From: an uncultured Burkholderiales bacterium | Lineage (GTDB): Bacteria; Pseudomonadota; Gammaproteobacteria; Burkholderiales; Burkholderiaceae_C | Assembly: GCA_945952065.1 (NCBI GenBank) | Contig: CAMFGY010000017.1 | Coordinates: 1 to 64,000, forward strand | Reading direction: 5' to 3' | DNA: 64,000 bases | Part shown: positions 48,642 to 60,516 of the stretch, in pieces | How positions within the stretch are numbered: position 1 is the first letter of the stretch | Layout of the letters: each line of letters begins with the position of its first letter | Translations under genes and position numbers: made by a program | Notes under the pieces: model-generated | Told to the model about the DNA's origin: nothing | Seen by the model: only the letters and a program-made list of their open reading frames with translations | Database searches by the model: none

Positions 48642-49966
48642 AGATTCTGATCAAGCATGGGCGTCTGATCGACCCCGCTTCCGGCTTGGATCGCGTGGGC
48701 GACCTGGCCATTGCCAATGGCCGCATCGTGGGCCTGGGTGAGGCTGGCGAATTCGCCGCCGACCGCGTCATCGATGCCACGGGCCTGATCGTGGCTCCGG
48801 GCCTGGTGGACCTGGCTGCGCGCTTGCGCGAGCCCGGCCATGAACATGAAGGCATGCTGGAAAGCGAGTTGGCGGCGGCTGCCGCTGGCGGCGTGACCAG
48901 CCTGGTCTGCCCGCCCGACACCGAGCCGGTGCTGGACGAGCCCGGCCTGGTGGAGATGCTGAAGTTCCGCGCCCGCAAGCTGAGCCGCTGCCGCTTGTTC
49001 CCGCTGGGCGCATTGACGCAAGGTTTGAAGGGTCAGGCCTTGACCGAAATGGCCGAGCTGACCGAGGCCGGCTGCATTGGCTTCTCGCAAGCCGAAGTGC
49101 CGGTGCGCGACACGCAAGTGCTGGCGCGTGCGCTGCTGTATGCGGCCACCTATGACTACACCGTGTGGCTGCGCCCGCAAGACGCTTACCTGGGCGGCGG
49201 CGTGGCCGCCAGCGGTGCGGTGGCCACGCGGCTGGGCTTGGCCGGCGTGCCGGTGACCGCCGAGACGGTGGCGCTGCACACGATTTTTGAGCTGATGCGC
49301 TCCACCGGCGCGCGGGTTCATCTGTGCCGCATTTCCAGCGCCGCGGGTGTGGAACTGGTGCGCGCCGCCAAGCGTGACGGCCTCAAAGTGACGGCCGATG
49401 TCTCCATCAACTCGCTGCACCTCACCGATGTGGATATCGGTTACTTCAACTCCGCCATGCGCTTGGACCCGCCGCTGCGCCAGGGCCGCGACCGCGACGC
49501 GCTGCGCGCCGGTCTGGCCGACGGCACGCTGGACGCGCTGGTGTCCGACCATATGCCGGTGGCCCCAGACGAGAAGAACGTGCCCTTTGCCGAGGCCACG
49601 CCGGGCGCCACAGGCCTGGAGCTGCTGTTGAGCCTAGCCCTGCGTTGGGCCGAAGACTCGGGCCTGCCGCTGTCGCGCGCCTTGGCAGTGGTCACCGCCG
49701 AGCCAGTGCGGGTCTTGGGCTCGGCCCTGGGCTCTTTGTCGGCCAGTGCTGGGCGCTTGGTGCAGGGCGGTGTGGCCGATGTCTGCGTGTTCGATCCGAA
49801 CGCCAGCTGGTCGGTCACCCCAGCAGCCTTGAGCAGCCAGGGCAAACACACACCCTTTGCGTATGAGATCAGCGGCTTTGAACTGCCGGCCTCGGTGCGC
49901 TACACCTTGGTCGCTGGCCACGTGGCTTTTGAAGCCAACACCCCGCAAGAGATGGCCCGCGCCTGA
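48638..49966 (+). CDS. pyrC': Dihydroorotase-like PyrC', probably non-catalytic
   Basis: A 442-residue amidohydrolase-fold protein of the type I dihydroorotase family. The metal-binding HxH that normally precedes LREPG is lost: the segment here reads [13 protein letters not shown], with Ala and Arg at the His positions. The downstream SDHMP Asp is retained. Such PyrC' proteins are known in Pseudomonas as structural partners needed for PyrB assembly, with real dihydroorotase encoded elsewhere. The four-base overlap with pyrB supports an equimolar complex. It abuts the acyltransferase gene. Confidence 0.93.
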
Positions 49967-50700
49967 TGTTCAGAACCCTCATTGCCAGTGCACGCCTGCT
50001 TCGCTTCAGCCTGCATGTTTTTTACGGTCTGTTGCTGATCAAGCTGCGGTTTGGCAGCGCCAGTCTGGCGCAGCGCCATGCCTATATTCAGCGCTGGTCG
50101 CGCAAGATGCTGAGCATTTTCGGCATCGAATTGCAGGTGTCAGGTCTTGCCGCAAGACCTGGCCCCAAGCTTTTGGTGGCCAACCATGTGTCTTGGCTGG
50201 ACATCGCCGCGGTGCACTCGGTGGTGCCCGAAGCCCGCTTTGTCTCCAAGGCCGATGTCAAACACTGGCCCTTGGTGGGGGGCTTGGTGAATGGCGCCGG
50301 CACCTTGTTCATCGAGCGCTCCAGCAAACGTGACGCGCTGCGGGTCGTGCACCAGATGGCCGATGCCCTGAAGACCGGCGACACGGTGGCCGTTTTCCCC
50401 GAGGGCACCACGGGCGCCGGGCCCGAGTTGCTGCCTTTTCACGGCAATCTGCTGCAGGCGGCCATCTCGACCGAGGTGCCGATTCAGCCGCTGGTGATCC
50501 GATTCTCTGAACCGGGCGAACGCTTCAGCTCATCGGCACGTTTCATTGGCGACACCACCTTGCTGCAAAGCCTGTGGCGGGTCTTGACGGCCAAGGGCCT
50601 GAGTGTGTCGGTGCAGGTCTTGCCTGCTATGGGAACCGCTCATGCCGACCGGCGTTTGCTGGCCGAGCACGTGCGCGAGCAGATCGCCGAGGCTTTGTAA
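49966..50700 (+). CDS. 1-acyl-sn-glycerol-3-phosphate acyltransferase (PlsC family)
   Basis: A 244-residue membrane-associated acyltransferase. The catalytic NHVSWLD (HxxxxD) is near residue 75, the substrate motif FPEGTTGAG near 145 and VPIQPLVIRFSE near 170. A hydrophobic N-terminal stretch (about 5-25) can insert in the membrane. It makes phosphatidic acid or a related lipid. The codons for VSGLAARPGPK just before the HxxxxD motif form a perfect palindrome with rare codons (TCA, CTT, AGA). The start overlaps pyrC' by one base. Confidence 0.9.
   Translation: MFRTLIASARLLRFSLHVFYGLLLIKLRFGSASLAQRHAYIQRWSRKMLSIFGIELQVSGLAARPGPKLLVANHVSWLDIAAVHSVVPEARFVSKADVKHWPLVGGLVNGAGTLFIERSSKRDALRVVHQMADALKTGDTVAVFPEGTTGAGPELLPFHGNLLQAAISTEVPIQPLVIRFSEPGERFSSSARFIGDTTLLQSLWRVLTAKGLSVSVQVLPAMGTAHADRRLLAEHVREQIAEAL
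50141..50161. repeat. REP-like palindrome inside the plsC-family gene
   Basis: CAGGTCTTGC and GCAAGACCTG are separated by one C. The word (G)TCAGGTCTTGC recurs at 22709-22723 (reverse complement, in hemL) and 57944-57958 (intergenic). Confidence 0.7.
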
Positions 50701-51725: not shown

Positions 51726-52223
51726 ATGCAAGCACTTGCTTCTTTCGATCGTTGGCTGACTCGGCGCGCCTTTGAGGCCTCAGTCTGCCACGCCCAACCG
51801 TCCCAGTCTGGGGCTCGTAACACCCGTGCTGATTCGTGCAAAACGGGGGGCTTGCCCTTGCCGCAAACGGCTGAGGCCGCGCGCAACTGTTTGGTCAGTC
51901 CTTGGGGTGAAAAGGTCGTGCCGCTTTCGCCTCGCGCCTCGGCCGCCGCAATTGTGCGCGCCGCCTTCGGTGTGGGCCGCGGCGATTGGCTGGGCCTGTT
52001 GGCCGACGACAGCCGAAGCTCAGGCACGCGCCAAGCTTGGCGATTGGCTTGCTGGCGCGAGGGCGCGCAAGGCCTGCAGCCGCAATGGCTGAGCCCGGCC
52101 GTGCAGGCGCGGCCTGGCCAAGCCCCAGCCGTCTTGAAGGACGCCGTGCTCAAGGAGGCCGTGCACGCGCTCTGGCAGCAGGGCTGGCGACTCCAAGAGG
52201 CCTGGGCGCAAGACTTGCATTGA
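51726..52223 (+). CDS. Hypothetical protein, 165 aa
   Basis: A 165-residue soluble protein, rich in Ala, Trp, Arg and Gln, without signal peptide. The N-terminal 40 residues look irregular. Residues 60-165 read as an ordered domain (VPLSPRASAAAIVRAAFGVGRGDWLGLLADD, then EAVHALWQQGWRLQEAW). I do not recognise a family. Support comes from its place just after the structured leader, a GGAG 13 bases upstream and an open frame to 52223. A competing minus-strand frame over the same region looks less protein-like. It is convergent with the GNAT fusion gene. Confidence 0.6.
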   Translation: MQALASFDRWLTRRAFEASVCHAQPSQSGARNTRADSCKTGGLPLPQTAEAARNCLVSPWGEKVVPLSPRASAAAIVRAAFGVGRGDWLGLLADDSRSSGTRQAWRLACWREGAQGLQPQWLSPAVQARPGQAPAVLKDAVLKEAVHALWQQGWRLQEAWAQDLH

Positions 52224-52271: not shown

Positions 52272-54263
52272 TCAGAGCAAACGGGTGATCTTGACCGAGG
52301 ACCCCATGTTTTCGATTTGCACATTGTCTGCCGCGCCCCGCGCGAGCTTGATCATGTGCTCGTTGTTGGACAAGACCTCGGCCACAAAGCCTCGCACGCC
52401 GCGTGCTTTGGCGTGCTCGCTCATGCGCTGCTGCAACAAACCACCCAAACCTTGACCCTGCCATTGAGGGTGCACCATGAAGGCGGTTTCGGCCAGATTG
52501 GTGCTGGGGTCCACCATATACATCGCGTGCGCCACGATTTGCGGGTTCTCTCGGCTGCCGACGCAGGCCACCAAGCCAACCTCGGTCTCTGAGTTCAAAT
52601 TGCACAGCCGCTGTACATCGCGACTGGAGAGCCCGCGCAGGCGGCGGAAAAAACGGGTGTAGACATCGCGCTCTGGCAGTTGATGGAATAGGTCGCGAAT
52701 GGCGTCGCCATCGCTGGGCATGGCCGGACGTAGCAGCACCGGACGATGGTCTTTGAGCTGCAGGTGGCGCTCTTCCTCGACTGCGTAGGCCTGCAGATTG
52801 CGCAAGGTCTGGTCAGCCGGCACATAGCCCATGGTTTGCGCCTGCTCCAGCAGGGTCTGGCGGGCATCCGGGTGGGCAATTTGAATCATGGCGACGGCAC
52901 GCTCGCGAATTGACTTGCCAAACAAATAGGCGATGCCGTATTCGGTGATCACGTAATGCACATCGCTGCGCGGAATGGCCACGCCCTCGCCGGCCAGCAG
53001 GGCCGGGCGAATGCGCGAGCTGTGGCCGTCTTCTTCGGTGGAGGCCAGGCAGATGATGGCCTTGCCGCCCTGCGAGCGCGAGGCGCCTTGCAAAAACTCT
53101 GCTTGAGCGGCAACGCCGCTGTAGAGATCACCCTGGAATTGGTCAACACAGACCTGCCCGGTCAAATCGACGGCAAAGGCCTGGGTCACCGAGACCAGCT
53201 TGTGCTGCGAGCCCAGCGTCCAGGCGTCGCAAACCGCCTCAATGGGTTGGAAAGAAAACAAAGGATTGCGGTCGAGCAAGTCATAGAGTCGGCGCGAGCC
53301 CATGGCGAAGCTGGTGACAATCTTGCCGCGCTGATTGGTCTTGCGTTTGCCGTTCAGAATGCCGCGCTCGAGCAGCGGGATGATGGCGTCGGTGATGACA
53401 TCGGAGTGAATGCCCAGGTCTTGCCGATCACTCAGGTACTTCAAGGCCTCGTTGCTGAAGCGACCCAGGCCAATTTGCAAAGTGGAGCCGTCGTCAATGA
53501 TGCTGCTGATGTAGCGCGCGATTTTTTCGACCACTTCGGTCTGCTGCGCCGGATGCAGGTATTCAATCACCGGCGTGTCCACCGGCACGAGGTGGTCAAT
53601 CTCTCCGACGTGCAAGGTGGAGTCGCCCAGGGTGCGCGGCATATGCGGGTTCACCTCGGCAATCACCACCCGTGCTTTGGCCACGGCGGCTGGCGTGATG
53701 TCGACCGAGACGCCCAGGGACACATAACCAAATTCATCCGGCATGGAGACTTGGATCAAGGCAACGTCGATGGGAATACGCCCGATGGCGATCTGCTGCG
53801 GCACCCGTGCTATCGAGATCGGCACATAGTCGGCCAAGCCTTGTTTGACCGCCGCGCGCATGTCTTGGCCAATAAAAAAGCAGCGGTGCCGATAGCGGCT
53901 CAGCGCTTGACCCTGGGGGTCCAAGGGTATGGCGCGATCGGTCAGGAAGTGCAGCAATTCCACATCTTGCGGCGCGGGCGACAGGGCTTCTAAAGCGGCG
54001 ACCAGGCTGCGCGGCGTGGCACAGGCGGTGCCCACAAAGACATGGTCACCCGCTTTGATCTGGCTCACCGCGACTTGGGCCGAGCAGATCTTTTCGGCAC
54101 AGGCGGCCAAGCGTGGATCGACGGCCGGGCTGCTGTCTTCGCCACCGCTGGTGTTGCTGCTCGCAGGCGCAGCGCTGAAGCGTTGTTGCCAAGCTTGCGC
54201 CAAGCGGCTGAGCAAGCCAGCGGCGCTTGATTTGTCATTGCTGGGGCTGTTGTCCATGGCCAT
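52272..54263 (-). CDS. Acetyl-CoA hydrolase/CoA-transferase family protein fused to a GNAT domain
   Basis: A 663-residue fusion. Residues about 50-475 follow the acetyl-CoA hydrolase/4-hydroxybutyrate CoA-transferase family (VVIAEVNPHMPRTLGD, DDGSTLQIGLGRFSNEAL, VDLTGQVCVDQFQGDLYSGVAAQ, YVITEYGIAYLFGKS). The catalytic Glu expected in a GIHSE motif reads Asp (LGIHSDVITD). Residues about 495-663 are a GNAT acetyltransferase with the acyl-CoA loop HPQWQGQGLGGLLQQ. Such fusions suggest acyl-CoA-dependent protein acylation, by inference. ATG 54263 has GAGGA eight bases upstream and lies 29 bases inside the patatin gene, so the two are coupled. Confidence 0.9.
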   Translation of the reverse strand: MAMDNSPSNDKSSAAGLLSRLAQAWQQRFSAAPASSNTSGGEDSSPAVDPRLAACAEKICSAQVAVSQIKAGDHVFVGTACATPRSLVAALEALSPAPQDVELLHFLTDRAIPLDPQGQALSRYRHRCFFIGQDMRAAVKQGLADYVPISIARVPQQIAIGRIPIDVALIQVSMPDEFGYVSLGVSVDITPAAVAKARVVIAEVNPHMPRTLGDSTLHVGEIDHLVPVDTPVIEYLHPAQQTEVVEKIARYISSIIDDGSTLQIGLGRFSNEALKYLSDRQDLGIHSDVITDAIIPLLERGILNGKRKTNQRGKIVTSFAMGSRRLYDLLDRNPLFSFQPIEAVCDAWTLGSQHKLVSVTQAFAVDLTGQVCVDQFQGDLYSGVAAQAEFLQGASRSQGGKAIICLASTEEDGHSSRIRPALLAGEGVAIPRSDVHYVITEYGIAYLFGKSIRERAVAMIQIAHPDARQTLLEQAQTMGYVPADQTLRNLQAYAVEEERHLQLKDHRPVLLRPAMPSDGDAIRDLFHQLPERDVYTRFFRRLRGLSSRDVQRLCNLNSETEVGLVACVGSRENPQIVAHAMYMVDPSTNLAETAFMVHPQWQGQGLGGLLQQRMSEHAKARGVRGFVAEVLSNNEHMIKLARGAADNVQIENMGSSVKITRLL

Positions 54264-56151
54264 GGGTGGGTTCCTCGAGGTCGGCGGCTTCACGCGGCGG
54301 GCCGATGTGAAAAGACTGGTTTGCCAGCACGTCGCAGGCGTGTTCATAGCCGAGTTGCACCAGTTCGTCAAAGCGCTGCCATTGCAACATGCCGATGCGC
54401 TGCAGCGGGGGGTTGAAATACAGGTCAATCAGCTGCCGGACTTGGCGCTGCCGCGAGGTGCTGTACAGCACGGTCACGTTCATCAGCAAGGCAGAGAGAT
54501 CGGGCAGGCGGTAGCGCCGTTTGGCGCGCGGCCGCAGGCGGTCGCGCAACAGGGTCAGGCTGCCGGGCACTTCCTCGTTGTCGTAGCGCCTCGGCTTGTT
54601 GCTGCCCAAATCCACGCCAATCACCCGGCCTATGCCCCAGCGCCCACGCATCACATCGGCGGGCAGATTGTTGAAAGTGCCGCCGTCGCAAAGCAAGTCG
54701 CCGTTCAGGATGACCGGAGGCAGGGCCCCTGGAATCGCCACGCTGGCCAGCAAAGACTTGGCCAGCGAACCTCGCGCCAGCAACTGCTCGCGGGCCTGCG
54801 AGTAGTTGCTGGCGATGCAGAAGAAGTTCTTCCACAAGTCTTCAATTTGCGCGGGGTGGCCCGTCAAGGCCTGGATGGACTGCTCCACCACGCGGCGCAG
54901 GCGTCGGCCGCGGATCAAGGAAATCATGGGCAGCCAGTTGAAGTCGCCGGTGGGGTTGATGGCAAAGGCGGATTTGGCGGTGGCGGTGGTCAGGTCCAAG
55001 GGCCGGTCCATGCCCACCAGGGCTGCCATCACGGCCCCGATGCTGGTGCCTCCCACCAGATCGATGTCGATGCCTTGTTCTCGCAGGGCTCGGTAAATGC
55101 CCAGGTGGGCCAAGCCGCGCGCTCCGCCTCCGGCCAGCACCAGGCCGACGCCGTTGCGGCTGACCAAGCGCGCCAGGCGGTCCATGTCGCCGGGCAACTG
55201 GGGGCGGATGTGAACATGGGCGGCAACAGGTCGGCGTTCCAGCCAAGCCAGCGTGCCCTTGGGCGACTGCCTTTGTTCGGGGTGCAGCAAGACCAGCACC
55301 TCGGTGGCATCGGTGCGAGGAGGGCGGCTGATCAGGCATTGCGTTTCAATCGCGTGCAGCTGAACCGGCTGGTCGGCGTCGGCCAGCAGCAGCAATTCGT
55401 CGCAGTGCCGGCAGCAGCGCTCGGTCCAAGGGCTGGGGTCGGGGTCGGCGATGAGCAGCACAAAGTCATGCTCAGACTCGATCTGGTCCAAATGCATGGC
55501 GATGCGGCGGGTGGCCGCTGTATCGCTGCTGGGCCGCTCGCAAACCATGGGGTCGCTCAAGTCCTGGCCCAGGCTCTGGGCGGAGACCACCGAGACGCGG
55601 CCAAAGGGGTGGAGATGGTGGGCCAGCTGATGGGCAAAGTGCGCTGCATCCACGCCCCCGCTGACCGGCAGCACGCCGATGGTGACGGGCTTGTCAGGGA
55701 TGGAGCGCGAGCCTTCGGTCTTGAGCCTCAGAATAATCTGCCGCGTCAGCGCAATCGAGACCTGCTCACTGACGGCCAGCAACTGTTTGAAGCGATCTTT
55801 GCCGAGCCGGACCAAGACGGAGTCGCGAATCGCCACCAGGGTGGCCGAGCGCGGCTCGTCGGTGAACAAACTCATCTCGCCCACGATCTGGCCTCGGCCA
55901 ATTTCGCGCACCACCCGCGTCTCTCCAAACTCGTTGGTGATGTAGGTGCGCAGTCGGCCGCTGAGCAACAAGTACAGCGCATCGCCCGCTTCACCTTGCG
56001 TCATCAAGGCCTGCCCGGCCGGGACCTCGACCCACTCCAGGTGGGGTAACAGCAGTTCAATGGCCTGCGGATCGATCTCGCCCAGCAGGGCCGGGAGGTG
56101 TCTGCGCAGCAGCGTGTCAAGGTGTTTGGGGTGTTCGCTGGTGTTCAGCAT
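54235..56151 (-). CDS. CNB-regulated patatin-like phospholipase (NTE family)
   Basis: A 638-residue protein with three parts. The N-terminal cyclic-nucleotide-binding domain (about 20-140) has GEAGDALYLLLSGRL and GQIVGEMSLFTDEPRSATLVA. A central degenerate P-loop-like domain (about 150-325, PVTIGVLPVSGGVDAAHFAH and HDFVLLIADPDPS) resembles that of neuropathy-target-esterase proteins. The patatin domain has GGGARG near 337, the nucleophile Ser in GGTSIG near 371 and the catalytic Asp in LLCDGGTFNN near 487. It should deacylate phospholipids under nucleotide control. ATG 56151 is preferred over an upstream TTG. Its 3' end overlaps the GNAT fusion gene. Confidence 0.92.
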   Translation of the reverse strand: MLNTSEHPKHLDTLLRRHLPALLGEIDPQAIELLLPHLEWVEVPAGQALMTQGEAGDALYLLLSGRLRTYITNEFGETRVVREIGRGQIVGEMSLFTDEPRSATLVAIRDSVLVRLGKDRFKQLLAVSEQVSIALTRQIILRLKTEGSRSIPDKPVTIGVLPVSGGVDAAHFAHQLAHHLHPFGRVSVVSAQSLGQDLSDPMVCERPSSDTAATRRIAMHLDQIESEHDFVLLIADPDPSPWTERCCRHCDELLLLADADQPVQLHAIETQCLISRPPRTDATEVLVLLHPEQRQSPKGTLAWLERRPVAAHVHIRPQLPGDMDRLARLVSRNGVGLVLAGGGARGLAHLGIYRALREQGIDIDLVGGTSIGAVMAALVGMDRPLDLTTATAKSAFAINPTGDFNWLPMISLIRGRRLRRVVEQSIQALTGHPAQIEDLWKNFFCIASNYSQAREQLLARGSLAKSLLASVAIPGALPPVILNGDLLCDGGTFNNLPADVMRGRWGIGRVIGVDLGSNKPRRYDNEEVPGSLTLLRDRLRPRAKRRYRLPDLSALLMNVTVLYSTSRQRQVRQLIDLYFNPPLQRIGMLQWQRFDELVQLGYEHACDVLANQSFHIGPPREAADLEEPTHGHGQQPQQ

Positions 56152-56272
56152 TCGGGTCTGGCACGGGTTTGGATGCAACGCATGAACCTAACAGCAAAGC
56201 GTGTGCTCAGGGTCGGCTGCGGGTGCAGGGTTTCCCTAGGCGGCGCCATGATGGCTGAGCGCTCGGGGGAAA

Positions 56273-56497
56273 TCAGGGCCGCCGAGCGCTTGAGTTGCTG
56301 TGGGCTTGGTTGCAGGCCTCGTAAAGCCAGGTCACGGCAATGTCGGTGTCCATGAAGCTCGGGTTTGCTGCGTCCTCGGGGTCTTCATCGCCGTGCAAAG
56401 AGGATTGCAGTGCGCTGGCGCCCGAGCCGAATCGCGCACTGCTGCGTTCCTTCAAGAAAACGGCAAACCTTTGTTTCAGGTGCCATATGAGACTCAT
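56273..56497 (-). CDS. Small hypothetical protein, 74 aa
   Basis: A 74-residue open frame starting MSLIWHLKQRFAVFLKERSS, with basic N-terminal and acidic middle sections and the motif TDIAVTWLYEACNQAHS. AGGAG lies about ten bases before ATG 56497. It fills the gap between two paralogous CNB genes on the same strand. Coding status is likely but not certain; no family recognised. Confidence 0.45.
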   Translation of the reverse strand: MSLIWHLKQRFAVFLKERSSARFGSGASALQSSLHGDEDPEDAANPSFMDTDIAVTWLYEACNQAHSNSSARRP

Positions 56498-56615
56498 GAT
56501 CTGCTCACTCCTGGGCTGATGGGTTCAGATGCCCAGCATCTGGGGCCCTGGAGTCAGTGTCTGGCGGCGCTGGCTTGCCGTCTTGAAAATCTTATGAAAG
56601 ATGCGTTCGCAGCTT

Positions 56616-57887
56616 TCATAGGCGCTGCGGCGAGGCGTTGAGCCGGTAGCCAAAGCCTGCCACCGTGCTGATGATTTTGGGGCCCAAGATTTTGCGCAAG
56701 GCGGCCACCTGAGCGGCGACGTTGTTTTCTTCCACCACCAAGCCGGGCCAGACCCATTCCAAAAGCTCGCCCTTGGTGACCAGCCGCCCCGGGCGCTCCA
56801 GCAAGACCAAGAGCAAGTCAAAGGCGCGAGCGCCCAGGGCTTGGGGCTGCCCGTCTTTCAGCAGGCGCCGGTCTTGCTCCTGCACTTCAAAGCGATCAAA
56901 GCGCCAGCAGGCGCTCGGGCTCATTGGCCCGCGCTTGTTGAGCGGGCCCTTGACGCGCTCGGCCAAGCGGGCCAGGTCTTGGCTCAGGCTGGACTTGAGC
57001 TCCAGATGGGGGCGCGCCGGTCGCAGGGCCAGCCAATGCTTGGCCAGCTTGGCGGGGAAGGGCTCGTCCGGGTGCAACAACACCAGGGTTTCGTTGGCAC
57101 CCTTGGCCGCTGTGCGCTGGCCCAGCAAGTGGGTCTCATTGGGGTGCAGCACCGGTGCTTGAGCCGCATCGGCGATCAGCAGCAACTCATCGCAATGGCT
57201 GACGCAGAAGGCGCTCCAGGCACTGGGGCTGGGCTCGGCGATCAGCAACACATAGTCATGGGTGGCTTCGAGCTCGTCCAAGTCTTGCGTCGAAATCGGG
57301 TCATGGACCAAGGCCACTTGCTGGGGCTGTGCAGGCTGGCGCAGTTGCGCCGCCAAGCCATTCGCAAGGGCCTGCAAGTCCAGCCCCTCGCTGATGGGCA
57401 GCAGGGTGATGGTGGCGGTGCGCCCGTGTACCTGTGACGAAGACTCGGTCCGCAAGCGTTGGATGATTTGGCGAGTCAAAACTTGAGACACATGGCTGTT
57501 GAGTGCGAGCAAGCGCTCGAACTCGGCCTTGCCCAAGCGCGCGAGCACGCAATCGCGCGCGGTGACCAAGGTGGCCGAGCGCGGTTCGTCCATGTACAGA
57601 CTGATCTCGCCCACCACTTGGCCGCGGCAAATCTCCCGCACCATGCGCTGTTCGCCGCTTTCGGCGTCATGGATGAAGGTGCGCAATCGGCCGCGCAATA
57701 GCAAATACAGGGCGTCCCCTGGATCACCCTGGCGCATCAGGGTTTGGCCCGCGGCCAACTCCAGCCATTGCAGCTTGTCCATCAGCAGCGCCAGGCTTGC
57801 CGCATCCAGCTCGCCCAGCAGTGCGGGCAGCTGGCGCATCAGCAACTCTTCAAAAAGGCGTTTGGCCGGAGCTCGGACCGTTGACAT
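56616..57887 (-). CDS. Cyclic-nucleotide-binding regulator with NTE-type P-loop-like domain and OmpR-type DNA-binding domain
   Basis: A 423-residue protein. Residues about 15-145 form a cyclic-nucleotide-binding domain (GDPGDALYLLLRGRLRTFI, GQVVGEISLYMDEPRSATLVTARD) very similar to that of the patatin protein downstream. Residues about 155-320 match the central domain of that protein (ATITLLPISEGLDLQALANGL, HDYVLLIAEPSPSAWSAFC, HCDELLLIADAAQAP). Residues 327-423 are a winged helix of the OmpR/CadC type (RAFDLLLVLLERPGRLVTKGELLEWVWPGLVVEENNV ... VAGFGYRLN). It therefore looks like a paralogue in which the lipase was replaced by a DNA-binding domain. It is divergent from the phosphorylase gene, a possible target. 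Confidence 0.9.
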   Translation of the reverse strand: MSTVRAPAKRLFEELLMRQLPALLGELDAASLALLMDKLQWLELAAGQTLMRQGDPGDALYLLLRGRLRTFIHDAESGEQRMVREICRGQVVGEISLYMDEPRSATLVTARDCVLARLGKAEFERLLALNSHVSQVLTRQIIQRLRTESSSQVHGRTATITLLPISEGLDLQALANGLAAQLRQPAQPQQVALVHDPISTQDLDELEATHDYVLLIAEPSPSAWSAFCVSHCDELLLIADAAQAPVLHPNETHLLGQRTAAKGANETLVLLHPDEPFPAKLAKHWLALRPARPHLELKSSLSQDLARLAERVKGPLNKRGPMSPSACWRFDRFEVQEQDRRLLKDGQPQALGARAFDLLLVLLERPGRLVTKGELLEWVWPGLVVEENNVAAQVAALRKILGPKIISTVAGFGYRLNASPQRL

Positions 57888-57943
57888 AAGCGATAGCAGC
57901 GGAGGGATGCGAAAAGCAAAGGCGTCTTGAGGGGCAAGGCGCT

Positions 57944-57966
57944 GGGGTCAGGTCTTGCGGGCAAGA
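57944..57966 (+). repeat. REP-like word between divergent genes
   Basis: GGGGTCAGGTCTTGC, followed by GG and GCAAGA, giving a TCTTGC/GCAAGA hairpin. It lies between the CNB/wHTH regulator and the phosphorylase gene. Confidence 0.65.
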
Positions 57967-58038
57967 ACATAGCATGGAAGCCGATGCGCTGGGCCGAGGC
58001 CTGCGGGGGCTGGCTTGGGCGTCCGGTACAGTCGGCGC

Positions 58039-59613
58039 ATGAGTGCTTCATTGCAAAGACCCTTGCAGGTGCGCCGTGTCGGCATCGACACCTGGCGGGA
58101 GAACGTGGCCTATATGCACCGAGACTGCCCGGTGGTGCGGGCGGCGGGCTTCCAGGCTTTGTCCAAAGTAGAGGTGCGCGCCAACGGCCAGATGATTCTG
58201 GCGGTGTTGAATGTGGTGGACGATGAACGCATCGTCAGCGCCTGTGAGCTGGGCCTGAGCGAAGACGCTTTCAGCCGTTTGGGCGTGGTCGAGGGCCATG
58301 CAGCCCGCATCGCCCATGCCGAACCGCCTGCTTCCATTGCCGCGCTGCGTCGCAAGATCAATGGCGAGCGCTTGGGCAAAGAGGACTTGGCCGCCATCAT
58401 TCGTGATGTGGCCGAGGCGCGCTACTCCAAGATTGAGTTGGCGGCCTTTGTGGTGGCCACCAACCAATATGAGCTGGACCGCGAAGAGGTCTTGCACCTG
58501 ACCGAAGCCATGATTGCGGTCGGGCGCCGGCTCGATTGGCACAAGCAAGTGGGCGCCGGGCCGGTGGTGGACAAGCATTGCATCGGCGGTATTCCGGGCA
58601 ATCGCACCTCCATGCTGGTGGTGCCCATCGTCAGCGCCCACGGCATGTGGTGCCCCAAGACCAGTTCGCGTGCCATCACCTCACCCGCGGGGACGGCCGA
58701 TACCATGGAGATGCTGGCCGAGGTGGAGCTGAGCGTGGATCGCATGGTGCAAATCGTCAAAGACACCCATGCCTGCCTGGCTTGGGGGGGCACCGCGGAT
58801 TTGTCGCCAGCCGATGACATCTTGATCTCGGTGGAGCGGCCTTTGTCCATCGACTCGCCGGGCCAGATGGTGGCGTCCATCTTGTCCAAGAAAATTGCGG
58901 CGGGTTCGAGTCATCTGGTGCTGGACATTCCGGTGGGGCCCAGCGCCAAGGTGCGTTCCATGGTCGAGGCGCAGCGGCTCAAAAGGTTGTTTGAGTACGT
59001 GGCGGGCCATTTGCGGCTGCAGTTGGATGTGGTGCTCAGTGACGGGCGCCAGCCCATCGGCGCGGGCATTGGGCCGGTGTTGGAAGCGCGCGATGTGATG
59101 CAGGTCTTGCAAGGCGACCCCGCCGCGCCGCAGGACTTGCGCCAAAAAGCGCTGCGGCTGGCCGGGCGCATGATCGAGTTCGACCCCGATGTGCGGGGCG
59201 GCGAGGGCTACACCATCGCCCGCGACATCCTCGATTCCGGTCGCGCCCTGGCGCAACTCAATGCCATCATCGACGCTCAAGGCCGACGCAGCACCATGCC
59301 GGCTTTGGGCGCTTTGAGCGTGGAGGTGTGTGCGCCCTCGGAAGGGGTGGTGGTCGCCATCGACAATTTGCGCATTGCTCGCATTGCCCGCCTGGCCGGT
59401 GCGCCGCAGGTGTCAGGGGCGGGCATGGATTTGCTCAAAAAGCTGGGCGAGACGGTGCAAGCCGGCGAAGCGCTGTACCGCATTTACGCTCAATTCCCGG
59501 CCGACCTTCAGTTTGCTCAAAGCCATGCCGAAAAAGAGTCGGGCTACCGCATCGGTCGTGCTGAGCAGTTGCCGCATGAGTTCGCCAGGGCTGGCAGCTT
59601 GTTTTCGCTTTAG
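58039..59613 (+). CDS. Thymidine phosphorylase family protein (AMP-phosphorylase-like)
   Basis: A 524-residue member of the long, archaeal-type thymidine/AMP phosphorylase group. A 90-residue N-terminal domain precedes the phosphorylase core, with [48 protein letters not shown] and [17 protein letters not shown] carrying the phosphate and base contacts. Standard bacterial DeoA is about 440 residues and lacks the N-terminal extension. The archaeal relatives split AMP into adenine and ribose 1,5-bisphosphate. It lies nine bases before a PRPP-synthetase-like gene, suggesting nucleotide salvage. ATG 58039 gives the shortest form with full family similarity. Confidence 0.9.
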
Positions 59614-59622
59614 AACCATTTC

Positions 59623-60516
59623 ATGAACACACCCACTTGTTTGTTGGCCTTTGACGATGAGCGCGCCCTGGCCGAGCAGTTGTCCGGTGCGCTGGACCAG
59701 CCTTTGCAGCTCATCCGGCGTCACCGCTTCCCCGATGGAGAGATGCGACTGGTGCTGCCCAAGCCTTTGCCGCCGACCGTGTTGTTGCTGCGCGGTCTGC
59801 AGCAGCCCAATGACAAGCTGGTGGAGCTCTTGATCGCCGCGCCGACCGCGCGCGAGCTGGGGGCCAAGCGCCTGGTCTTGATCACGCCTTATCTGGCCTA
59901 TATGCGTCAAGACATGGAGTTCAACCCGGGTGAGGCCGTCAGCCAGCGCCATATCGCGCGGCTCTTGGCACAGCACTTTGATCATGTCATCACCATCGAC
60001 CCCCATTTGCACCGCATCGCCAGCCTGGATGAGGTGATGCCTGCCGGCTGCGGCATGGCCTTGTCCGCCGCGCGCTTGCTCGGCGAATGGGTGGCGGCGC
60101 AGGTGCCGGGCGCCCTTTTGATCGGGCCGGATGAAGAGTCGGCCCAATGGGTCAGCGAGGCGGCCAAGGCCGGTGGGCTGCGGCATGCCATCGGCCGCAA
60201 AGTGCGCTTGGGCGACAGCCATGTGAGTTTGGCCTTGCCGGATGTGGACGTGCGCGGTCTGCCGGTGGTCTTGCTGGACGATATGGCCTCCACCGGGCGC
60301 ACGCTGATGGGCTCGGCCACGGAGCTGCTGGCGCGCGGCGCGGCCAGCGTGGATGTGGCGGTCACCCATGCCTTGTTCAATGGCGATGCGCTGGATGCTT
60401 TGCACGCCGCAGGCGTGCGCCATGTCTGGAGCAGCAATGCGGTGGCGCACGCCAGCAATGCGGTCTCGGTGGCGCCGCTGCTGGCGCAGGCCTGTCGGGC
60501 GCTGCTGGCTCGATAA
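59623..60516 (+). CDS. Ribose-phosphate pyrophosphokinase-like protein
   Basis: A 297-residue PRPP-synthetase-fold protein, slightly shorter than housekeeping Prs (about 315). It has HRFPDGEMRLVLP (ATP/dimer region), YMRQDMEFNPGEAVSQRHIARLL (ribose-5-phosphate/ATP segment in an archaeal-like form), IGPDEES, a K-V-R in place of the usual KRR catalytic loop, and the PRPP loop VVLLDDMASTGRTLMGSA. The coupling to a phosphorylase suggests it acts on the product of that enzyme or recycles base with PRPP; this is inference. The housekeeping prs is expected elsewhere. Confidence 0.87.
   Translation: MNTPTCLLAFDDERALAEQLSGALDQPLQLIRRHRFPDGEMRLVLPKPLPPTVLLLRGLQQPNDKLVELLIAAPTARELGAKRLVLITPYLAYMRQDMEFNPGEAVSQRHIARLLAQHFDHVITIDPHLHRIASLDEVMPAGCGMALSAARLLGEWVAAQVPGALLIGPDEESAQWVSEAAKAGGLRHAIGRKVRLGDSHVSLALPDVDVRGLPVVLLDDMASTGRTLMGSATELLARGAASVDVAVTHALFNGDALDALHAAGVRHVWSSNAVAHASNAVSVAPLLAQACRALLAR

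Follow-up and report, generated by a model that had tools for sequence, protein, structure and literature searches.

An NTE-type sensor module joined to a PhoB/OmpR-type winged helix: a candidate one-component regulator beside a lipase paralogue in Burkholderiales

Proteins that join a cyclic-nucleotide-binding (CNB) domain to a DNA-binding domain are already known, with CRP as the type case. Table 1 of Kannan et al. (2007, PMC2246266) gives CNB partners of IclR, GntR, ArsR, Crp, MarR and AsnC type. For the catch-all class 'Other_bacterial', the consulted portion of that paper mentions unspecified DNA-binding domains; the combination described here is not named in the table. CNB domains also occur in bacterial lipases of the Neuropathy Target Esterase (NTE) type, which combine CNB, a P-loop-like domain and a patatin domain. 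Evidence for direct cyclic-nucleotide binding by NTE was called missing in the consulted part of a 2019 paper (PMC6995513), and excerpts of a 2022 review report that cAMP-raising agents increase the level and activity of NTE in HeLa cells (PMC9025805). Here we describe two neighbouring genes on a stretch of 64,000 nucleotides (the window; contig CAMFGY010000017.1 of assembly GCA_945952065.1, positions 1 to 64,000, forward strand) from an uncultured Burkholderiales bacterium. One gene encodes an NTE-type lipase (P0001). The other encodes a protein (P0002) in which the CNB and P-loop-like domains of such a lipase are followed by a PhoB/OmpR-type winged helix-turn-helix (wHTH) domain. Within the sampled genomes and literature this combination appears to be new. 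We did not recognise a description of it in the open-licence literature, where one paper that names both Pfam families merely lists them in a table, as far as its consulted part goes.

A common sensor region with two outputs

The two open reading frames (ORFs) are open at their coordinates and lie next to each other on the minus strand. P0002 (56616..57887, 423 amino acids) contains a CNB domain at residues 43–128 (cNMP_binding, 74.9 bits), an NTE P-loop-like match at 203–297 (NTE_Ploop, 53.0 bits) and a C-terminal PhoB/OmpR-type wHTH domain at 346–416 (Trans_reg_C, 59.8 bits). P0001 (54235..56151, 638 amino acids) carries the full set of an NTE-type lipase, with CNB at 41–126 (85.5 bits), the NTE P-loop-like domain at 157–318 (87.2 bits) and a patatin phospholipase domain at 337–500 (96.4 bits). 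All these Pfam scores exceed the gathering cut-offs. They agree with a preliminary description of this DNA that had placed a CNB and an NTE-type P-loop domain in both proteins, patatin in one and an OmpR-type winged helix in the other. The same description held that the first ~325 residues are common to both proteins, and BLASTP indeed aligns this region, including the central domain, with 153 identical residues out of 322 (48%, E 5e-78), which rules out chance similarity.

The central domain of both proteins is the Neuropathy Target Esterase P-loop-like domain (PF24179). Since reading of either segment reveals no GK[ST] Walker A motif, we consider this domain degenerate. Comparison of the P-loop part with solved structures gave two weak matches (one unrelated protein, E ~0.01 over 46 residues), which we took as chance. 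Among solved structures, the DNA-binding domains of PhoB and other response regulators align with the winged helix of P0002. An assembly artefact is an unlikely source of the fusion, because four further genomes of the genus contain an identical fused ORF layout. A methionine at the fusion joint was considered as a fossil start codon, an idea that we dropped since this residue is present only in the P0002 of the window.

Compared with NTE-type lipases, among which the P0002 clade falls, P0002 has the same CNB and NTE_Ploop domains, but patatin, here present only in P0001, is exchanged for the winged helix, and the P-loop region is shorter by about 23 residues. This stretch is missing from all five wHTH proteins and kept in five of five aligned lipases. 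By eye, it also seems to be missing from the lipase at G000:C8, a paralogue at greater distance, so that the loss alone is not special to the wHTH proteins.

Other known systems resemble P0002 in parts. Like CRP/FNR-type and other CNB regulators with a helix-turn-helix (HTH), P0002 has CNB and a DNA-binding domain in one chain, which makes them comparable in their way of working. In contrast to CRP/FNR, P0002 contains no Crp-type HTH at E values up to 1, reaches 49 bits with the CRP model, whose cut-off is 266, and has both an additional P-loop-like domain and a winged helix of PhoB/OmpR type. Judged by its domains, with no Crp HTH, P0002 does not belong to the CRP family. OmpR/PhoB response regulators share the Trans_reg_C winged helix, but P0002 has neither a receiver nor an ATPase domain, and its winged helix is C-terminal. 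The CNB domain of P0002 (56 bits) and the GNAT domain of a protein encoded nearby (54 bits) match the model of mycobacterial Pat, a CNB-GNAT protein; here, however, the two domains are on separate proteins, and the scores fall far short of the 460 that the family model requires. We also rejected a Pycsar-type defence effector: there is no TIR domain, and the four PADLOC matches of P0002 are confined to residues 30–181, on the CNB side. The PADLOC matches of P0001 fall on its CNB part, with weak additional ones on the patatin part (22 and 17 bits).

Distribution and origin of the winged-helix form

The fused wHTH regulator is found in part of the Roseateles/Paucibacter group, within which NCBI now files Paucibacter oligotrophus under Roseateles (Sphaerotilaceae). 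Full-length relatives of P0002 were found in 5 of 18 genomes of the genus, namely G000 (the genome of the window), G001, G003, G008 and G010. G000 contains three CNB+P-loop proteins, the third being the C8 paralogue. Among 299 genomes of the family (E up to 1e-40), full-length matches were limited to two members of this genus, G000 and G010. Matches through both parts occurred only in G000 among 399 genomes of the order (P-loop and wHTH parts as query, E up to 1e-20), and G000 was likewise the only genome with such a match among 369 genomes of the class (E up to 1e-25) and 398 genomes of the phylum (E up to 1e-18). These samples overlap, and only the best four to six candidates per genome were scored under strict thresholds; cases that are rarer or further diverged may therefore have escaped detection. 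A first contig scan with P0002 as the sole query returned no relative, and three plasmid records matched, each over part of the protein only. The earlier suggestion that such a design would be unusual thus holds for the sampled genomes, which contain no case outside the genus. For the same reason, and as far as these samples reach, we rejected the idea that P0002 belongs to a common known regulator family.

The CNB+P-loop module occurs almost always with patatin. Of the 42 places outside the genus from the family search, 28 were examined; in 27 of these loci a patatin domain follows, and the 28th (L049) runs off its contig. Patatin also follows in 12 of 12 loci from the class search and in 20 of 20 inspected loci from the phylum search; the G130 and G107 loci are each counted in two of these sets. 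Two further loci comprise L092, with patatin, and L093, without it, but the match at L093 covers the CNB only. None of the inspected family, class or 20 phylum CNB+P-loop loci contains a wHTH match. Conversely, no CNB+P-loop match was found at 20 inspected wHTH loci (19 distinct places, ~1.5 kb flank). Because patatin follows nearly all CNB+P-loop loci, the wHTH form is the derived one, made by a swap of the output domain on an NTE-type lipase sensor. The NTE-type CNB + P-loop module can thus be moved between outputs, and the same kind of sensor that accompanies lipid cleavage now probably controls genes.

In a tree of 48 CNB+P-loop regions, which left out regions shorter than 240 residues and two partial duplicates (L009 and L010), the five wHTH proteins form one clade with a support of 100/100 among patatin proteins. 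This clade adjoins the lipases of the genus itself and two lipases from other genera (support 83/76; this branch is not starred), and its stem branch is long (0.61). Duplication inside the genus was weakly rejected by an approximately unbiased (AU) test: forcing the wHTH clade together with five lipases of the genus costs 21 log units (p-AU 0.028), with a group that was named after the tree had been seen. From this cost we infer that the duplication may predate the genus and may have been followed by losses; the long wHTH branch makes the date uncertain.

The winged helix of P0002 has relatives in the genus as well. It shares 49–61% identity with the wHTH domains of five further proteins from the genus, which represent Burkholderiales proteins with the winged helix at the N-terminus rather than, as in P0002, at the C-terminus. 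Two of the five were scanned, and they combine the winged helix with a receiver domain (L060) or with ATPase/TPR domains (L064). The ORF at L060:2186-3475 and similar ORFs in L061–L063 have an N-terminal winged helix and a receiver domain (the latter from the scan of L060 only). By eye, their C-terminal part resembles a degenerate cyclase, with no Pfam match there.

Selection, predicted ligand and predicted DNA target

The wHTH gene is maintained under purifying selection. Its frame is open in all five genomes, and the ratio of nonsynonymous to synonymous substitution rates (dN/dS) is 0.11–0.39 over 10 of 10 genome pairs, a rough measure given the high dS of 0.5–2.0. By domain, the same pairs give 0.10–0.23 for CNB, 0.14–0.60 for the P-loop part and 0.03–0.25 for wHTH. 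P0002 might instead be a weakly constrained duplicate without real function, as its patchy occurrence in 5 of 18 genomes and the long stem branch of 0.61 could suggest. This alternative is extremely improbable in the face of the open frames in five of five genomes, a dN/dS below 1 in all three domains and every pair, and the retention of an upstream block and a small ORF, both described below.

The CNB domain contains a phosphate cassette of the form GE...EPRSAT. Its residues G93, E94, R103, S104, A105 and T106 do not vary among the 10 proteins aligned (five wHTH proteins and five lipases), and in an alignment the cassette of P0002 is in register with the cAMP sites of PKA at Glu and Arg. It resembles the 'Other_bacterial' CNB consensus GEMALLDGEPRSATVVA given in the consulted part of Kannan et al. 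(2007, PMC2246266). The genome of the window yields three class III cyclase matches above cut-off, and from these matches we infer that the cell can probably make a cyclic-nucleotide ligand.

Upstream of the wHTH gene, an 11-bp block, CATGCTATGTT (57966..57976, minus strand), lies at a distance of 78 bp in the region common with a divergent phosphorylase gene. The block is kept in all five genomes with the wHTH gene (four exact copies, one with a single mismatch), and the surrounding region mostly aligns poorly. No such conserved 11-bp word emerged from 300 mononucleotide-shuffled sets, a control that ignores relatedness. The block was not found in G016 (up to 3 mismatches) or G009 (up to 4 mismatches), and the best words in G006 and G012 have 4 mismatches to it. 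Its letters resemble those of an extended -10 element. The block is a candidate promoter or a candidate operator.

We consider it fairly probable that P0002 is a one-component, cyclic-nucleotide-responsive transcription factor that arose from a duplicated NTE-type lipase gene. According to this proposal, a bacterial lipase gene of this type would have been duplicated, and the patatin domain of one copy replaced by a PhoB/OmpR-type winged helix to give P0002. The class III cyclases would make a 3',5'-cyclic nucleotide, cAMP or cGMP, which would bind to the CNB domain of P0002. The resulting change would reach the C-terminal winged helix by way of the degenerate P-loop-like domain, and the winged helix would then bind to DNA at the divergent promoter of its own gene (57888-58038) or close to it. 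P0002 may thereby regulate its own gene, and its further targets would probably be the lipase/CoA-transferase genes next to it, the divergent phosphorylase genes, or both. With CNB and P-loop on a DNA-binding domain, beside a lipase version of the same module, the pair would offer a reporter-ready test of what the NTE-type module senses.

Several observations weigh against this proposal. The P-loop part, the presumed relay, changes fast between G000 and the other four genomes (dN/dS 0.35–0.60; all values above 0.25 involve G000). The PRSAT motif is compatible with cAMP, cGMP or no ligand alike. A consensus scan of 56100-58100 found no sigma-70 promoter, and the conserved block may be merely a core promoter. 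With up to one mismatch allowed, the block has no further copy in the 64-kb window, and so there is no sign of it before the lipase/CoA-transferase genes. Finally, G008 contains the wHTH gene and no lipase gene. There, the CoA-transferase/GNAT gene is directly next to the wHTH gene and its frame is broken near the C-terminal end (L058:9978-11958), with the wHTH frame open, in a metagenome-assembled genome with a coverage of 4.6. The G008 case points to persistence of the wHTH gene even where the lipase gene is missing.

Alternatively, P0002 might be a DNA-binding regulator in which CNB and P-loop serve mainly for dimerisation or another ligand, with cyclic nucleotides uninvolved. CNB regulator families with other inputs do exist, as documented in the consulted part of PMC2246266, and the 2019 statement quoted above calls direct binding by NTE unproven (PMC6995513). 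This reading is nonetheless unlikely: the cassette is canonical and invariant in all 10 proteins, unlike those of the non-canonical families in the table of PMC2246266, as far as seen, and the genome carries class III cyclases.

In another model, the common CNB + P-loop region would let P0002 work chiefly as part of mixed oligomers with P0001, so that the lipase is tethered to DNA or the regulator is titrated by the lipase. In favour of this model, the two genes adjoin in four of the five wHTH genomes and the module is 48% identical. We regard it as distinctly improbable, since G008 holds an intact wHTH gene without the lipase, and the P-loop parts have diverged, with the ~23 residues gone from every wHTH protein.

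Small ORF and gene neighbourhood

Returning to the one-component regulator that we favour, the surrounding genes are as follows. Between the wHTH and lipase genes lies P0003 (56273..56497, minus strand, 74 amino acids), with a conserved motif around DTDIxVxWLxE. Counterparts of 71–74 amino acids are present in the same five of the 18 genomes of the genus as the wHTH gene (E <1e-3; all others E 0.18 or worse). Searches of Pfam, NCBIfam, PADLOC and plasmids gave no match. Since dN/dS is 0.29–0.70 in the 9 of 10 genome pairs for which it is computable, P0003 is likely, not certain, to be coding. One may also imagine a three-part system that evolved around a duplicated lipase sensor: P0001 and P0002, with their common nucleotide-sensing module, would form mixed oligomers, transcription would reflect the nucleotide as well as the engagement of the lipase at the membrane, and P0003 would serve as adaptor. 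Such a system would amount to a natural reporter built on the NTE regulatory region; we find it very doubtful.

Next downstream of the lipase gene is a gene for an acetyl-CoA hydrolase/transferase plus GNAT protein (52272..54329, 54329 being the 5' end as searched), located, as first described, on the same minus strand. Divergent to the wHTH gene, on the plus strand, are genes for a thymidine phosphorylase-like protein of the archaeal/AMP-phosphorylase-related subfamily (58039..59613; NF003338 with 695 bits, above cut-off; TIGR03327 AMP_phos with 483 bits, below the cut-off of 535) and, downstream of it, for a ribose-phosphate diphosphokinase-like (PRPP-synthase-like) protein (59623..60516; NF005537 with 366 bits, above cut-off).

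This order, with phosphorylase and PRPP-synthase divergent from wHTH, lipase and CoA-transferase/GNAT, is the same in G000, G001, G003 and G010. In G016, which is 79% complete, the lipase and phosphorylase genes adjoin directly, and no wHTH gene separates them. In G011, the genes for the lipase, the CoA-transferase/GNAT protein and the membrane-CNB protein lie far away from the phosphorylase gene, and there is no wHTH gene. In G009, whose phosphorylase is 92% identical to that of the window, lipase, wHTH and CoA-transferase/GNAT genes are all missing from this place, and elsewhere there are only distant matches. A counterpart of window positions 49966-50700 (acyltransferase-like by eye) adjoins the phosphorylase gene in G006, G012 and G011. 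From this varying content it follows that the gene group was patchily gained or lost.

The preliminary description had also suggested one circuit that links a nucleotide signal, lipid turnover and transcription. This idea fares only partly well. A CoA-transferase gene of the same type adjoins 6 of the 28 family lipase loci (~1.5 kb flank; one of them, in R. violae, with more flank). The wHTH gene of G008 without a lipase and the lipases of G011 and G016 without a wHTH gene speak against the circuit. Gene order is what would connect P0002 to lipid turnover.

Further along the minus strand is P0004 (50736..51602, 288 amino acids), with an N-terminal half that is hydrophobic by eye and a CNB domain at residues 166–243 (57 bits). 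With this further domain, three CNB proteins are encoded within ~7 kb. The domain layout of P0004 may resemble that of Popeye-type membrane CNB proteins. A counterpart of P0004 follows directly after the CoA-transferase/GNAT gene in G011 and is in the neighbourhood in G008. The phosphorylase and PRPP-synthase-like pair (58039-60516) would possibly provide nucleotide recycling beside nucleotide-sensing genes. Between the CoA-transferase/GNAT and P0004 genes, a 165-amino-acid ORF on the plus strand (51726-52223) has no Pfam or NCBIfam match; its relatives occur in G008, in G009 and, at the edge of the slice, in G010.

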